This document shows positions 27,714-34,622 of a DNA stretch of 64,000 nt, piece by piece. Both the position numbers and the translations under genes were made by a program. The stretch's first letter is position 1, and each line of letters begins with the position of its first letter. The DNA comes from Tenggerimyces flavus (lineage in GTDB: Bacteria > Actinomycetota > Actinomycetes > Propionibacteriales > Actinopolymorphaceae): NCBI RefSeq assembly GCF_016907715.1, contig NZ_JAFBCM010000001.1, positions 62,001-126,000 of the forward strand, in the 5' to 3' direction. The notes under the pieces are model-generated. The model was not told the DNA's origin and made no database searches. It was given only the letters and a program-made list of their open reading frames with translations.

Positions 27714-28892
27714 TCAGCGCAGGTTGATGGTCATCGCTTCGACGGCGAGCAAGGGGGCGACGTTGGCGGCGATGGCTTCGCGGCAGGCGAGGATGGCGTC
27801 GACCTTGGCCAGCACGGCTTCGGGCGGGGTGGACGCTGCGGCGCGGGCGATGTCGGGGCGCAACTCGAGGTTGACGAGCTCTGCTCCCGTGTTCAGCGCG
27901 ACCGCCAGGACGTCGCGGTAGTACGACATCAGGTCCAGCAGCGCCCGGTCCAGCGCGTCACGCTGCAGCCGCTTGGCCCGGACCTTCTGCTGGTCGTCCA
28001 GATCCTTCAACGCTGCTTGCAAAGAACGAGGCTTCGCGCCCTTTCCGCCCACGCCTAGAGCGTTCTCGAGCTCGGTACGTTCGTGCGTGTCCAGCTCGGT
28101 CGTCGCCGCCTTCGCCTCCTCCGCGGCCCGCTCGACCAGGGCCGCGGCCGCGTGCACGCAACCCGACAACGTGCCCACCTGCGACGGGATCGAGAGCACC
28201 TCAGAACGCCGGTCGCGCACCTCTTCCTTCAGCGCGAGGGCCCGCGCCCGGCCGATGTGCCCCTGCGACGCCCGCGCCGCGAAGAGCGCCATCGAACGCT
28301 CGACCCCACGCCGCTCCAACAACGACGCTACTGCCGACGTCGACGGCGTACGCAACACCAGCAGCCGGCACCGCGACCGGATCGTCGGCACCACGTCCTC
28401 GACGGTCGGCGCGCACAGCAGCCAGACCGTACGCGCGGCCGGTTCCTCCAGGCTCTTCAGCAGCGCGTCCGCCGCCTGCTCGGTCAGCCGGTCCGCGTCC
28501 TCGACCACGAGCACCTGCCAGCGCGCGCCCACCGGCGACATCGCGGACTTCAACACCAGCTCGCGAATCTCGTCCACCCGCAACGACAGCTGCTCGGTCC
28601 GCACCAGCGTCACGTCCGGGTGCGTTCCGCTCAACGACGTACGGCAGGCGTTGCACTCACCGCACCCCTCGTTCTGGCACTCCAACGCCGCCGCGAAGGC
28701 GCGTGCCGCGTTCGACCGCCCCGAGCCCGGCGGGCCGGTGATCAGCCACGCGTGCGTCATGCCCGAGATCCCCTCGACGCCGGCCAACCGCGCCGCCGCC
28801 GCGTGGGCCGCGTTGGCCAGGGTCTCGACCGTCGGCTCCTGCCCGGTGAGGTCCGCCCAGACGCCTGCCATCAACTCTGCCGGCGCCGTCAT
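27714..28892 (-). CDS. holB: DNA polymerase III delta' subunit
   Basis: A 392-residue clamp-loader subunit. The P-loop reads GPPGSGRSN, with Arg in place of the usual Lys, a zinc module follows (CQNEGCGECNAC), then VEDADRLTEQAADALLKSLEEP and the sensor RSRCRLL. It loads the sliding clamp with the delta and gamma/tau subunits. The changed P-loop suggests it does not hydrolyse ATP, as for delta' in other bacteria. ATG at 28892 overlaps the tmk stop by 4 bp. The convergent AAC(2') gene ends 16 bp from its stop. Confidence 0.93.
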   Translation of the reverse strand: MTAPAELMAGVWADLTGQEPTVETLANAAHAAAARLAGVEGISGMTHAWLITGPPGSGRSNAARAFAAALECQNEGCGECNACRTSLSGTHPDVTLVRTEQLSLRVDEIRELVLKSAMSPVGARWQVLVVEDADRLTEQAADALLKSLEEPAARTVWLLCAPTVEDVVPTIRSRCRLLVLRTPSTSAVASLLERRGVERSMALFAARASQGHIGRARALALKEEVRDRRSEVLSIPSQVGTLSGCVHAAAALVERAAEEAKAATTELDTHERTELENALGVGGKGAKPRSLQAALKDLDDQQKVRAKRLQRDALDRALLDLMSYYRDVLAVALNTGAELVNLELRPDIARAAASTPPEAVLAKVDAILACREAIAANVAPLLAVEAMTINLR

Positions 28893-30994
28893 CGCCGTGC
28901 CTCCTCAGGGGAATCCACCGGAACGGGGACGTCGGACTCGGTCGCGACGGGCTCGAGCAACGACTCGACCCTGGCGCGAATCTGGTCCGCGATCTCCGCG
29001 GGCTGCTGGGTCGCGTCGACCACCAGGTAGCGGTCCGGATCGAGCAGCGCGAGGTCGAGGAACCCCTGCCGTACGCGCTGATGGAACTCCAGCGACTCGC
29101 TCTCGATCCGGTCGGCCGGCCCGTTCGCCGCACCCCGCGCCAGCCCGACCTCGGGCGGAATGTCAAGCAGGACGGTGAGATGAGGCCGCAATCCGCTCGT
29201 CGCCCACCGCGACAGCCGCAGCACCTCGCGCTGCGCGAGATCACGTCCGCCACCCTGGTAGGCGAGGGTGGAGTCGATGTACCGGTCGGTGATGACGATC
29301 GCGCCCTCGTCGAGCTCCGGGCGGACCATCGTGTCGACGTGCTCGGCCTTGTCCGCGGCGTACAGCAACGCCTCGGTCCGCGGCGACAGGCTGCCGGTCG
29401 CGTTGCCCAGCACGATCGAACGGATCGTCTGACCGACCGGCGTCGCGCCCGGCTCGTGCGTCGCGACGACCCGCAACCCACGTTCGACCAGCCACGCCTC
29501 CAACCGGCGCACCTGGGTCGACTTGCCGGAACCCTCGCCGCCCTCCAACGCGATGAACAACCCCGTGTCGGAGAACACGCCACGCTCGTGCCCGCTGAAC
29601 GCCCCGCGCAGGTCGCGGATCAGCGAGACCTTCCGCCGGTCGTCCATCTGCCGGTAGCTGAAGACGCCGAGGAACGTGGCCGCCAAGCCAGCAATGAGGA
29701 ACGTGATCGAGGCGCCGTTGTACGTGATCGTTCCCTTGCCCAGCAAGGAGATCTGGTGCGCGCCGATCGCGCCGGCGATGCCCGGCGCGGCCGCGAGGAC
29801 GGCCGCCAGGACGACGCGAGTGAGCGACTGGACGAACGCAAACGTGCGGCCGCGGATCGCGTCGTCGACCTCCATCCCCAGCATCGTGTAGCCGGTGATC
29901 CACGCGATGCCGGCGCAGAAGCCAAGCAGGACAGTGAATCCGGAGACCAGCACGATGTTCTGGACGAGCGCCATCATCACCAGCGACCCGCCCGCGCCGG
30001 TGAGCGCGAGACCGAACATGCGCTTGCGGGAGAAGCCGGTCAGCAGCCGCGGGCCGAACGCCATGCCGCCCGCGAGGCCGAGGAACACCGCGCCGAACAG
30101 CACGCCGTAGCCGGCCTCGCCGCCGCCGAGGTCGGCGACGTACGTACGACCCAGCCCGATCACCACACCGCCGACGCCGAACGCGCCGACCACGCCGATG
30201 ACGAGACCTCGGACCAGCTTGTTGCGAGCGACGAACTTCCAGCCGACGAAGATCGCGCGGAGCACGCCTTGGCGTTCCTCCGAGCCGTTGCCTGCGCCCT
30301 GCCCGGACAGTTCGTGCAGCCGGCTCGCGACGATCGCGCCGACGAGGAACGTGGCGGAGTTGAAGTAGAGCGCGAGGTCGACGGGGCTGGCGAACCAGTT
30401 GAGCGTCGCGGACAGCGACTTGTTCAGCAGCGCGAGCAGGGTGAACAGCAGCGCGGCGGGGAGCGCGGAGCCGTACGTCGTGACGAGCGAGAGCTGGTTG
30501 GCGACCGCGAGGCGTTCGCGCGGGACGAGGTTGGGGACCGCGGCGTCCTTGGCGGGGAGCCAGACCAGGCTCACGCACTCGATGAGGACGGTGGCGGTCA
30601 GCAGCCAGAACAGGTTGCCGACGATCGGAATCGAGACGAACAGGCCGAACCTCAGTACGTCGCCGATCACCAGCGTCCAGCGCCGGTCCAGCCGGTCGGC
30701 GATGTAGCCGCCGAGCGGGCCGACGACCACGGCGGGGAGCAGGCGGAGGAGCAGCACGCCGGCGATCGCGAAGTTCTGCGCGCGGTAGTCGCCCTGGGCG
30801 AGCTGGCTCGCCATCGCGGTGAGGGCGAGCAGGCCGAGCCAGTCACCGAGGCTGGACAGGCCGAGCGCGATCCAGAGCTTGCGGAACGCGGCGATCTTCA
30901 GCACCGCGCCGAGCGCGTGCGCCGGCGGCGCGGCAGTGCGGGCCGCGTCGCCGCCGTTGCTGCTGTCGCCTTCTGGGTGGGCCTGCTCGGACAC
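28889..30994 (-). CDS. tmk: MFS-like membrane domain fused to thymidylate kinase
   Basis: A 701-residue fusion. Residues ~30-450 form an MFS-type membrane domain with about 12 hydrophobic segments (GPLGGYIADRLDRRW after segment 2). Residues ~480-690 are a complete dTMP kinase: P-loop ALEGGEGSGKSTQ, the DR(Y) motif ITDRYIDSTLAYQGGGR and a lid-like arginine region (ARGAANGPADRIE). The same fusion is known in other actinobacteria. The kinase makes dTDP for DNA synthesis; what the membrane part does is not established. GTG at 30994 has TACGCT 6 nt upstream. It overlaps holB by ATGA. Confidence 0.92.
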   Translation of the reverse strand: MSEQAHPEGDSSNGGDAARTAAPPAHALGAVLKIAAFRKLWIALGLSSLGDWLGLLALTAMASQLAQGDYRAQNFAIAGVLLLRLLPAVVVGPLGGYIADRLDRRWTLVIGDVLRFGLFVSIPIVGNLFWLLTATVLIECVSLVWLPAKDAAVPNLVPRERLAVANQLSLVTTYGSALPAALLFTLLALLNKSLSATLNWFASPVDLALYFNSATFLVGAIVASRLHELSGQGAGNGSEERQGVLRAIFVGWKFVARNKLVRGLVIGVVGAFGVGGVVIGLGRTYVADLGGGEAGYGVLFGAVFLGLAGGMAFGPRLLTGFSRKRMFGLALTGAGGSLVMMALVQNIVLVSGFTVLLGFCAGIAWITGYTMLGMEVDDAIRGRTFAFVQSLTRVVLAAVLAAAPGIAGAIGAHQISLLGKGTITYNGASITFLIAGLAATFLGVFSYRQMDDRRKVSLIRDLRGAFSGHERGVFSDTGLFIALEGGEGSGKSTQVRRLEAWLVERGLRVVATHEPGATPVGQTIRSIVLGNATGSLSPRTEALLYAADKAEHVDTMVRPELDEGAIVITDRYIDSTLAYQGGGRDLAQREVLRLSRWATSGLRPHLTVLLDIPPEVGLARGAANGPADRIESESLEFHQRVRQGFLDLALLDPDRYLVVDATQQPAEIADQIRARVESLLEPVATESDVPVPVDSPEEARR

Positions 30995-31063
30995 CCTGTC
31001 AGCGTAACGACGCCCTCCCCCGAAAGCCTGGCGAGTGGGGGAACGACGCGCCCGAGCGACTTC

Positions 31064-31127
31064 CGCTACCGCAGTTGCGTAATCCACGGACGCGACCTAC
31101 AGTCGGCATTACGACACCGAGGTAGCG
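31064..31127. promoter_or_regulatory. imperfect long inverted repeat upstream of the TetR gene
   Basis: Arms 31064-31084 and 31107-31127 match at 16 of 21 positions, with perfect ends CGCTACC/GGTAGCG and inner CGTAAT/ATTACG. It sits between tmk and the divergent TetR gene and could hold the TetR operator(s). Confidence 0.35.
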
Positions 31128-31757: not shown

Positions 31758-32267
31758 ATGCCTCGGGTACTCATCGTCATCGGCGCCCTCGTCGTCGTCC
31801 TCGCCGGCGCGATCGTCTGGCAGCGCGCGAATCCCCTCGTCCTGCGGGTCGAGACCGAGATCGAAGCCTCCGCCGACCAGGTCTGGAACGTCCTCGCCGA
31901 CCGGGCCGCCTACCCTGAGTGGAACCCGTTCATCGTCCGCTCCGAGGGCGAGCTTGCCGTCGGCGCGACCATCACGAACGTCATGCGCAGCGGCGGAACG
32001 GACCGTACGTTCACGCCCACGCTGCTCGCCGTCACGCCAGGCCGCGAGCTGCGCTGGATCGGCCGGCTGTACGTCCCGGGCCTGTTCGATGGCGAGCACT
32101 CGTTCGTGATCGAGGAGCTCGGCCCCGGCCGGGTACGGCTCGTCCAGGAGGAGACGTTCAAGGGCGCGCTCGTCCCGTTCCTCACCGGCATGCTCCGCGG
32201 CGAGACCCTGCCCGGCTTCCGGGCGATGAACGACACCCTCGCCGTCCGCGCCGCCGCGACGCGCTAG
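31758..32267 (+). CDS. membrane-anchored SRPBCC-domain protein
   Basis: A 169-residue protein: one N-terminal hydrophobic helix (3-21) then a START-like SRPBCC fold (VETEIEASADQVWNVLADRAAYPEWNPFI ... LLAVTPGRELRWIGRL ... FVIEELGPGRVRLVQEETFKG). The fold binds hydrophobic ligands. It follows the TetR gene by 14 bp with an AGGAC ribosome site, so it belongs to the TetR operon. The stop overlaps the convergent small secreted gene by 4 bp. Confidence 0.85.
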   Translation: MPRVLIVIGALVVVLAGAIVWQRANPLVLRVETEIEASADQVWNVLADRAAYPEWNPFIVRSEGELAVGATITNVMRSGGTDRTFTPTLLAVTPGRELRWIGRLYVPGLFDGEHSFVIEELGPGRVRLVQEETFKGALVPFLTGMLRGETLPGFRAMNDTLAVRAAATR

Positions 32268-32446
32268 GCAGGTGGGGCTGGCTGAAGGTCCGAGCCGGGC
32301 AGCGAGCTCGGCGCGCAGTTCGAGCCCGGCAGCGAGTCGTCGCACGGAGCCTCGTTCGATGCGAAAGCCGTTCCCGTTCCCAGGACCGCGAGTCCCAGCG
32401 CCAGCGCGGCCAGGCCGGCCGCGATCGATCCACCTCTCGTACCCAT
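32264..32446 (-). CDS. small secreted protein of unknown function
   Basis: A 60-residue protein: signal peptide 1-30 (AALALGLAVLGTGTAFA) and a ~30-residue mature part with two cysteines (APCDDSLPGSNCAPSSLPGS), which could form a disulfide. The sequence DSLPGSNCAPSSLPGSDLQ contains a repeated SLPGS. ATG at 32446 has a GGGGG ribosome site 9 nt upstream. A 20-bp element ~100 bp upstream is identical to one before the PKD gene, so both may be co-regulated. No homologue is recognised. Confidence 0.65.
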   Translation of the reverse strand: MGTRGGSIAAGLAALALGLAVLGTGTAFASNEAPCDDSLPGSNCAPSSLPGSDLQPAPPA

Positions 32447-32536
32447 CAGGTGCCCCCTTTCCGTTCGTCCCCTGACCCGCACGAACCAGACCCCAGCTGG
32501 CCCGCCTGCCTACCATCCCGTACCCGTCCCGCGGAC

Positions 32537-32556
32537 GAATCGGGGAAACCCCTCGC
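32537..32556 (-). promoter_or_regulatory. shared 20-bp upstream element, copy 1
   Basis: On the minus strand GCGAGGGGTTTCCCCGATTC, centred on the palindrome GGGGTTTCCCC. It lies 91-110 bp upstream of the small secreted gene. An identical copy in the same orientation lies at 34603-34622, at a similar distance from the PKD gene. Confidence 0.6.
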
Positions 32557-32574
32557 TTTTGACACCGCACTCAA

Positions 32575-32614
32575 CACTGGCGGCCATCGGTCCCCCCGCC
32601 GATGGCCGCCAGTG
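32575..32614 (-). terminator. hairpin terminator of the PKD-domain gene
   Basis: A 16-bp perfect stem (32575-32590 with 32599-32614) closes an 8-nt loop, 4 nt after the stop codon of the minus-strand PKD gene. No U-tract follows. Confidence 0.85.
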
Positions 32615-32617
32615 CCG

Positions 32618-34501
32618 CTACGGCGCGGCGATGGCTGGCGGAGTGAGGCCGACCCGGTACGGGTACGGCCCGTCCGTCGACCCCGCGTAGAGGTTGCCGC
32701 CCGCGGTGACGGCCGCGACCGTCGTGTCGCCCAGCAGCAGCGGCGCGATCAGCAGCGCCGCGGCCCGGCCGCGCGAGTCCGTCCTGTCCTGCACGTCGAT
32801 GCCGCCGATCTTGAACGTCACCTCCGCGTTCGCGACGGGCTTGCCCTGCGAGTCCACCACGGTCGCCGACAGGTTGATCGGCAGCAGCGGCAGGGAGTGC
32901 CGTGGCCCGGTGTACGTGGTCTTCGTGGCCCGCGCGGTGACGGTCGCGACCACCTCGGCCGAGGCCGAGGCGCCGTCTTTGTCGGTCACGGTGACCTTCG
33001 CGGTGTACGTGCCGGGCTTGGCGTAGGTGTGCGTCGCGTCGGCGCCGTCCGCCTGGGTGCCGTCGCCGAACTCCCAGCGGTACTTCAGCGTCGCCTGGTC
33101 GGCCGGCCCCGGATCGGTCGCCTCCGCGTGGAAGCTGGCCGGCAGCCCCCACTCCTGCTTGACGTCCGCGGGCCTCGCGACGACCGGCGCCGCGTTCTCG
33201 ATCGGCTGGCGCAGGTCGAACGGCTGCTCCGCCACGTTGCCGCCCGCGTCGCTGACGACGAGCGTGCCGTTGTACGTCCCGTTGTCGGCGAACACGTGCT
33301 CTACGGTCTTGCCCGACGCCGTCGTGCCGTCGGAGAACGTCCAGTCGTACGTCAGCCCGTCGAGGCAGTTGTCCTCCGCGCCGGCGGTGAACGTCACCGG
33401 CGAGCCCTCGACGAAAGCGCCGGTCTGGTCGAGGCCGGTGATCCGCGGCTTCACGTCGTCCGGCAGGACCGTGCCGACCTCGTACGTCGCGGCCGTCGCG
33501 TGGTCGAACATGTTCATGCTGCCCTTGAGCAGCACGCCCTCGCGCAGCGTGTGCCAGGTGTGCGAGTTCAGCGGCCCGGGGCCGTCGATGTCCAGGTAGA
33601 ACTTCAACGATCCCGTGGCGGCGACGTCGGGCGCGTAGAGGGCGGGAGCGCCGACCTTGTACCTCAGCTTCGAGCCGGGCGTCGCGGTGCACGGCACCGG
33701 AACCTCGTCCGCAACGTTCTCGGCCTTGGCCCACACGGACTTCTTCGCGTCGACGTTTCCCGCGCTGGTGTTGAAGGTCGCCGTCCTCGCGACGACGATG
33801 CCCTCCTTGGTCGCCTGCACCTGGCCGTCGGCGTGCAGGTTGACGGTGAGGTCGACCGGGCAGCCGGGGAGGAAGCAGGTCTCCGGGACGAACCCGTCGA
33901 TCTTCGTGCTGAAGTCGCACAGGACGGCGCCGGCCTGCGGCGTGCAGGCGGTCGGGGCGGTCATCGTCTTCGTCGCGGTGCGGGTGTACTCGTTCGTCTC
34001 CTGCCAGTCGTCGTAGCCCTTGTCCCCACAGGGCTTGAAGTCCCCGCCACAGACGAAGATGCCGAACGCGTAGGTGCCTTCGAACGCGAGCTTCAGCCCC
34101 TCGCCCTCACCTCGGCCCATCCGGTTGAACACGGTCGCGGTCGATCCCTGCCGTACCTCGGCTGGGTCGACGGTGAAGACGGGCACCTGCGAGTTCGCCC
34201 AGTCCAGCCGCGAGATCGCCTTGATCTTGATGCCGGCCGTGACCTCGCAGCCACCGCAGTCGAACAGGTCGTCCGGCACGCAGGTGTCGCAGTGGGCAAT
34301 CAGTCCGCCGCCGTCGACCGGCCCGAGCGAGCCGACCGGCTTGAGCTGGACGCTGTGCTCGGCGGCGGCGGTCACCGCGGCCGGCTCCGCGTCCTCCAGC
34401 GTCACGGCCGCGTTCGCGCCGCCGGTCGCGACGACGGCGACCACGTGGAGATAGATGGTGATCAGGACGAGTGCGAGCGCCCGCGCCACGTTGCGTTGCA
34501 T
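32618..34501 (-). CDS. large secreted PKD-domain protein, Cys-rich N-terminus
   Basis: A 627-residue secreted protein: signal peptide ~1-32, a cysteine-rich unknown region 33-340 (12 Cys in all, with CDTC and CGGC pairs near 71-85), then two PKD beta-sandwiches (about 352-432 and 438-520, with YDWTFSDGT and YRWEFGDGT) and a C-terminal Ig-like domain (540-627). PKD domains mediate extracellular binding. No catalytic domain or cell-wall anchor is seen. ATG at 34501 follows a palindromic leader and shares the 20-bp upstream element with the small secreted gene. Function unknown. Confidence 0.8.
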   Translation of the reverse strand: MQRNVARALALVLITIYLHVVAVVATGGANAAVTLEDAEPAAVTAAAEHSVQLKPVGSLGPVDGGGLIAHCDTCVPDDLFDCGGCEVTAGIKIKAISRLDWANSQVPVFTVDPAEVRQGSTATVFNRMGRGEGEGLKLAFEGTYAFGIFVCGGDFKPCGDKGYDDWQETNEYTRTATKTMTAPTACTPQAGAVLCDFSTKIDGFVPETCFLPGCPVDLTVNLHADGQVQATKEGIVVARTATFNTSAGNVDAKKSVWAKAENVADEVPVPCTATPGSKLRYKVGAPALYAPDVAATGSLKFYLDIDGPGPLNSHTWHTLREGVLLKGSMNMFDHATAATYEVGTVLPDDVKPRITGLDQTGAFVEGSPVTFTAGAEDNCLDGLTYDWTFSDGTTASGKTVEHVFADNGTYNGTLVVSDAGGNVAEQPFDLRQPIENAAPVVARPADVKQEWGLPASFHAEATDPGPADQATLKYRWEFGDGTQADGADATHTYAKPGTYTAKVTVTDKDGASASAEVVATVTARATKTTYTGPRHSLPLLPINLSATVVDSQGKPVANAEVTFKIGGIDVQDRTDSRGRAAALLIAPLLLGDTTVAAVTAGGNLYAGSTDGPYPYRVGLTPPAIAAP

Positions 34502-34532
34502 TCCTGTGGTTCCCCTCCCGAAGGCGAGACAG

Positions 34533-34559
34533 CTCGTGCACCCCCCTGACGTGCACGAG
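34533..34559 (-). promoter_or_regulatory. 9-bp inverted repeat in the leader of the PKD gene
   Basis: CTCGTGCAC (34533-34541) and GTGCACGAG (34551-34559) flank 9 nt. It lies 32-58 bp before the start codon and could be an operator or a leader hairpin. Confidence 0.4.
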
Positions 34560-34602
34560 TCGTCCGTACGTACACCAAGCCTGGCCGGGGGCGGGCCGTG
34601 GT

Positions 34603-34622
34603 GAATCGGGGAAACCCCTCGC
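34603..34622 (-). promoter_or_regulatory. shared 20-bp upstream element, copy 2
   Basis: Identical to 32537-32556 and in the same orientation, 102-121 bp upstream of the PKD gene start. Identity stops at the edges, so it is not part of a longer duplication. Confidence 0.6.

Follow-up and report, generated by a model that had tools for sequence, protein, structure and literature searches.

A 20-bp element that occurs twice, letter for letter, ahead of two neighbouring genes of Tenggerimyces flavus raises the question whether it is a repeat or a regulatory site, and, in the latter case, which protein reads it. The window, the whole stretch of DNA analysed here, measures 64,000 nucleotides. Copy 1 (GCGAGGGGTTTCCCCGATTC, featuring the dyad GGG-GTTT-CCC) spans positions 32537..32556 and copy 2 positions 34603..34622, both on the minus strand. 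Exact string matching confirmed that the two are identical and equally oriented (32556-32537 and 34622-34603), and at up to 3 mismatches the window holds these two copies only, shuffled sequences averaging 0.01 matches. As the sequence-only reading had it, copy 1 lies 91 bp before the ATG at 32446 of a gene for a 60-residue peptide (32264..32446, minus strand), and copy 2 lies 102 bp before the ATG at 34501 of a gene for a 627-residue PKD-domain protein (32618..34501, minus strand; Pfam PKD_4, E 6.4e-37). Both products have a signal-like start (MGTRGGSIAAGLAALALGLAVLGTGTAFAS... in the peptide). A Pfam search with the peptide gave no match; the PKD protein has in addition a weak Ig-like (Big_1) match, below the cut-off. 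The flanks, described as unmatched, are indeed so beyond the five bases on the upstream side, but these five resemble each other, 23 of 25 positions being alike when the element is included.

The gap that separates copy 1 from the PKD gene contains a perfect 16-bp inverted repeat with an 8-nt loop (32575..32614). It is possibly the terminator of the PKD gene, of a kind lacking a T-run; a scan of the window region for T-run terminators found none. Because this repeat lies between them, the peptide and PKD genes are probably separate transcription units. For a cooperation of the two products outside the cell no support was found: the inverted repeat separates the genes, and the remaining sites are dispersed along the chromosome. 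The PKD protein moreover has a paralogue in the same genome with 47% identity (L227, G000:C1:2334131-2335933, with one TAG inside the match in the search output), and no element was found in the 4.8-kb locus of the latter. The PKD protein was matched in 2 of 57 genomes, T. flavus itself and one with a 159-residue stretch at 36% identity, too few for a footprint. Elsewhere in the window, at 28889-31087 (minus strand), one reading frame seems, by eye, to join an MFS-type transporter and a thymidylate-kinase-like domain.

The T. flavus genome (8.52 Mb, a single contig) was searched with the reversed pattern as control. With as many as 3 mismatches allowed, the full 20-mer gave 5 sites (control 0), and GCGAGGGNNTTYCCNGATTC at up to one mismatch gave 6 (control 0). 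A seventh site, CGTGGGGGTTTCCCCGATTC, differs in the first four bases and fits in the last 16 only; it came from another degenerate pattern, out of register (26 matches, control 10), the one that revealed the LivJ site described below. The degenerate pattern GCGAGGGNNTTYCCNGATTC at up to 3 mismatches gave 29 matches over the whole genome versus 20 in the control; its weaker matches are not counted here, because most are chance. Four two-mismatch matches (L033-L036, L035 being the same as L029) were inspected and left out of the counts. Besides the two in the window, sites precede two lipoprotein-like genes (L003 and L032), a gene for a 92-residue protein (L004), a STAND-ATPase/SARP (LAL-SARP) regulator gene at 7.04 Mb identified by Pfam (L005), and a gene for a LivJ-like substrate-binding lipoprotein (L021). 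At L064 (2320-5065) two LivJ-like lipoprotein genes stand in tandem, the first with the element, the second with at best a degenerate one. In each of the seven cases a gene of the same orientation begins 24 to about 100 bp past the site. A random spread, also inside genes, was the distribution named as contrary to a regulatory role, and all seven genome sites were found upstream of genes. When the seven are aligned, 12 of the element's 20 columns do not vary, nor does one A located three bases upstream. By a weight matrix made from 18 sites of other genomes, T. flavus excluded, the seven score 15.4-32.9; copy 1 scores 29.1, and the best other position of the window 9.9. The element is a part of promoters rather than a repeat.

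The promoter architecture emerges from the distance to the -10 box. Based on the spacing seen in other genomes, -10 hexamers are proposed 19 nt past the GATTC of each window copy, GATGGT for copy 1 (32512..32517, minus strand) and CAGGCT for copy 2 (34578..34583, minus strand). Both fit NANNNT, not TANNNT. A NANNNT hexamer is found 19 or 20 nt past GATTC in all seven T. flavus sites (GATGGT, CAGGCT, TACGTT, TAGGCT, GAGGGT, TACGGT, GAACCT), with a chance of 0.044 per site in a test framed after the sites had been inspected. The full TANNNT is present in three of the seven; in the other four -10 boxes, among them the two in the window, the first T is missing. In the L003 and L004 sites the ATG is placed 7 and 6 nt past the -10 box, which resembles leaderless transcripts. 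No canonical -35/-10 pair was found in the window region, nor in its shuffles.

The same spacing was observed in named genomes, scanned with a pattern that did not include the -10 part. At least 80 stretches, with 82 sites, are among the matches listed, and the element consensus in these genomes is GCGAGGGTTTTCCCYGATTC. Most of the 82 sites look like chance, 65 coming from non-actinobacteria. Among the matches listed, TANNNT stands at exactly 19 nt in 7 of 17 actinobacterial sites, or 7 of 11 once six Microbacterium sites are set aside; the latter were rejected as coding, since they reside inside long open frames, and none has a -10 box at 19. By comparison, 1 of the 65 non-actinobacterial sites listed has TANNNT at any offset from 18 to 21 (Fisher 1.1e-6 for 7/11 versus 1/65, among the matches listed). 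The seven actinobacterial sites with TANNNT at 19 are also the seven with a TTTT core, and they are not all independent, because L096 and L122, as L073 and L131, mark the same genes in related species.

In the genomes of the class, the exact string AGGGKTTTCCCYGATTC was found 9 times in 7 of 394 genomes, three times in T. flavus (control 0), and all six sites in 6 of the 393 other genomes have TANNNT at 19-21. A pattern with a looser core and a required -10 box gave 8 matches in 7 of 394 genomes, two of them in T. flavus (control 0). Nine genomes were picked for already having a site, so that 9 of their 19 matches are the sites that led there and 10 are new (control 0). Of the 13 exact matches in these genomes, 11 have TANNNT at 19 (among the four new exact ones, two do), and the exact sites L218 and L221 have none at 17-22; of the one-mismatch matches, one of six has TANNNT (at 20), and five have none at 17-22. 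The scan of named genomes traced the element to Mycobacterium, to Actinoplanes and relatives, to a Pseudonocardiaceae strain and to an uncultured actinobacterium; genome g8 is presumably a Nocardioides. We describe genome g15 as mycobacterium-like on the ground that YVGRVGALAVALG, allowing for one I in place of V, recurs in its exported targets and in a target of Mycobacterium sp. Root135 (L218 in G449). Since the exact form is missing from 387 of the 394 sampled genomes, either the spread is patchy or the element is variable. A search of 37 further related genomes that allowed up to one mismatch showed no enrichment (4 matches, control 2).

Some sites are set apart by what follows them. In Actinoplanes relatives (L216 and L224) a one-mismatch form, AGGGTTCTCCCTGATTC, lies about 120 nt before a gene that resembles, by eye, a primary-type sigma factor; the two share ATGCCACC past GATTC and have no -10 box at 19. 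In mycobacterium-like genomes four copies (L155, L156, L157, L217) have no clear gene after the promoter, and predicted hairpins are found instead, followed in L157 by TTTTTT. For this reason these copies may drive short non-coding RNAs. A search of Rfam with 13 loci gave no match up to E 1.

The targets are biased towards exported products. By a crude signal-peptide rule, 15 of 20 targets are exported, versus 55 of 229 background genes; for T. flavus the figures are 5 of 7, with 26 of 109 and 29 of 120 in the background sets, which may include targets and overlapping loci. The binomial values (0.010 for T. flavus, 2.2e-6 for all) are overstated, because several targets are homologous. The 20 rows comprise the seven T. 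flavus targets, L073, L131, L096, L123, L075 (two sites), L161, L158, L159, L211, L215, L218 and L221; L004, L005, L073, L131 and L161 were called non-exported. By eye, M4-metalloprotease-like proteins are encoded at L075, L096, L123 and L215, an SGNH-like esterase at the second site of L075, and giant YVGRVGALAVALG-type proteins at L158, L159, L211 and L218. Left out of the 20 were L143 (Pfam Vgb_lyase), unscored by the script and with a signal-like product start; L122, twin of L096; repeat sites (L209, L210, L212, L213, L214, L220, L194-L197); L259-L262, the same gene as L161; sites with no clear downstream gene (L155-L157, L217, L219); one-mismatch sites with no -10 box (L216, L222-L224); and sites with no -10 box at 19 (L111, L126, L130, L137 and the six Microbacterium sites).

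Placement, spacing to the -10 box, recurrence in actinobacteria and the excess of exported products are properties of the element itself; from them we infer where transcription starts, that the element activates rather than represses, and that a dimer of LuxR type (GerE-HTH) is the binder. The element is probably, though with a good share of doubt, an activator operator, LuxR-type reading included, at promoters of sigma-A type whose -35 box is poor. The idea of a shared activator site gained from the fixed spacing and from the presence of the element in other genera. A dimer would bind the GGG-N4-CCC dyad, centred at about -42.5 and adjoining RNA polymerase; GATTC would occupy about -36 to -32, in place of a -35 box, and transcription would begin from the -10 box 19-20 nt beyond GATTC. 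The T. flavus regulon would be small and scattered, made up of the two window genes, the two lipoprotein-like genes and those for the LivJ-like protein, the 92-residue protein and the LAL-SARP regulator. More tentatively, at somewhat less than even chances, one ancient LuxR-type regulator, acting through AGGG-N4-CCCY-GATTC as operator at a fixed distance from the -10 box, may govern an undescribed actinobacterial regulon that coordinates exported proteins. If so, the regulon would span metalloproteases and an esterase in some groups, lipoproteins and a PKD protein here, and, in mycobacteria, giant surface proteins of YVGRVGALAVALGVG type as well as short structured RNAs. One readable DNA signal would then connect, at the level of expression, surface and secreted proteins without a known role in several actinobacterial groups; the element would group orphan exported proteins by shared control, and offer a direct handle on the regulator and on what the regulator senses.

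A binder of LuxR type had been proposed from the core, and the evidence on it is divided. The centre of the dyad, as deduced from the 19-nt spacing given a -10 box at -12 to -7, would fall at about -42.5, and in class II LuxR-type sites the lux box is centred at -42.5. In a genus of the same order as T. flavus, a solo 110-residue LuxR-HTH gene (L161:1570-1899; Pfam GerE, E 5.1e-19) has the exact element upstream, the only match in its genome. Homologues at E 1e-18 or better were found in 9 of 215 genomes of that genus, with 16 matches. The element, followed by a TAG-type -10 box, stands 68-74 bp ahead of the L161 gene as well as of the four homologues nearest to it (64-75% identity; L258-L262); no site was found upstream of the other 11, weaker, homologues. 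In the alignment of the upstream regions of the group, 13 of 16 element columns are invariant, versus 47 of 194 other columns. The symmetric core GGGTTAACCC occurs in two members, in one as the full dyad AGGGTTAACCCT. A second conserved stretch, approximately AAG.GATTC.GC, is present some 40-70 nt upstream of the element in L259-L262. The conservation in the group favours autoregulation by the LuxR-HTH protein, but the gene could also be one more target.

In T. flavus the 91 GerE-gene regions (280,591 bases, with bounds reaching some hundred bases before the open frame) were scanned, and no such site was found; one match exceeds 9 bits, at 13.1, versus 22-35 for the sites, and an autoregulated LuxR gene in this genome was rejected accordingly. 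It is here that the LuxR reading is weakest. Within 3 kb of the seven sites there is one GerE gene (L062), where 0.45 would be expected by an estimate from the 91 genes; it features Pfam GerE and TPR matches and no PAS in the part scanned. The nearest listed GerE domain is more than 40 kb away from the window pair.

These regions lend some weight to an operator for an activator of another kind, such as a SARP, a different dimeric HTH protein, or a WhiB-like protein that works together with sigma-A region 4, which we regard as possible, if unlikely. GATTC, at the -35 position, is conserved at least as much as the dyad and breaks its symmetry, and a site, found at none of the 91 GerE genes, is present at a LAL-SARP gene. 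That gene, the only regulator gene among the T. flavus targets, was considered as master regulator and rejected: in spite of the site in its promoter, its DNA-binding domain is of SARP and not of LuxR type. It is matched in 6 of 37 other related genomes, and no site was found in the four homologue loci scanned. In our judgement the dyad, symmetric through the core in two species, suits a dimeric HTH protein better than WhiB. In SARP sites, directly repeated heptamers stand close to the -10 box on its upstream side; by eye none were seen there at the element, the seven T. flavus sites featuring the dyad and a 19-20-nt gap. The title of PMC5930380 mentions heptamer repeats.

It is improbable that a dedicated sigma factor recognizes the element as its extended -35 region: the 19-21 nt spacing, and the lack of a canonical -35/-10 pair in the window region (shared by the shuffles), would agree with it, but the -10 box is an ordinary TANNNT, and a dyad-containing element of 17 bp exceeds known -35 boxes in length. 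Slightly less probable still is a repressor operator overlapping the -35 region; the dyad does adjoin the promoter, but a repressor would need, in our judgement, neither the fixed 19-nt spacing nor a missing -35 box. Chance, a dispersed repeat or a recent duplication, which two identical copies 2 kb apart might suggest, can practically be dismissed, given flanks unrelated past five bases, promoter positions, the same element in other genera and control matches of 0.

The activator operator, here again the preferred reading, can be compared with known systems. Like class II LuxR sites, the element is a 20-bp site with a deduced dyad centre at about -42.5 and a poor -35 box; it is unlike them in sequence. 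MalT boxes, bound by LAL/MalT activators, are G-rich, directional and placed beside the -35 position, as is the element; in contrast to the latter, they are not known to be dyads, and come in arrays. The DosR/DevR box (TTSGGGACTWWAGTCCCSAA) is made of GGG/CCC half-sites of a LuxR-HTH protein; the half-sites are alike, but the gap measures 8 in DosR and 4 in the element. String searches of the literature returned no title on such an actinobacterial operator among the matches listed, and the portions available of PMC3551636 and PMC5015266 give no LAL binding site. Parts of the string do occur in bacterial papers, among them PMC6856326, PMC6475665, PMC3976249 and PMC10314930. The closest published operator known to us is that of PimM and related PAS-LuxR activators, which, in the available part of PMC9774167, bind CTVGGGAWWTCCCBAG in the -35 region. 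The same GGG-N4-CCC dyad and spacing are found there in the -35 region of activated actinobacterial promoters, and the GGGATTTCCC variants of the element (L211, L221) fit the core of both. In contrast, the flanks of the element are CGA...YGATTC, not CT...AG; the window copy differs, by our count, at 4 of 16 positions from the 16-bp consensus given in that part; and its targets are scattered and mostly exported proteins. We rate the element as a probable new activator operator, with a new regulon and with a LuxR-type protein as the candidate binder.
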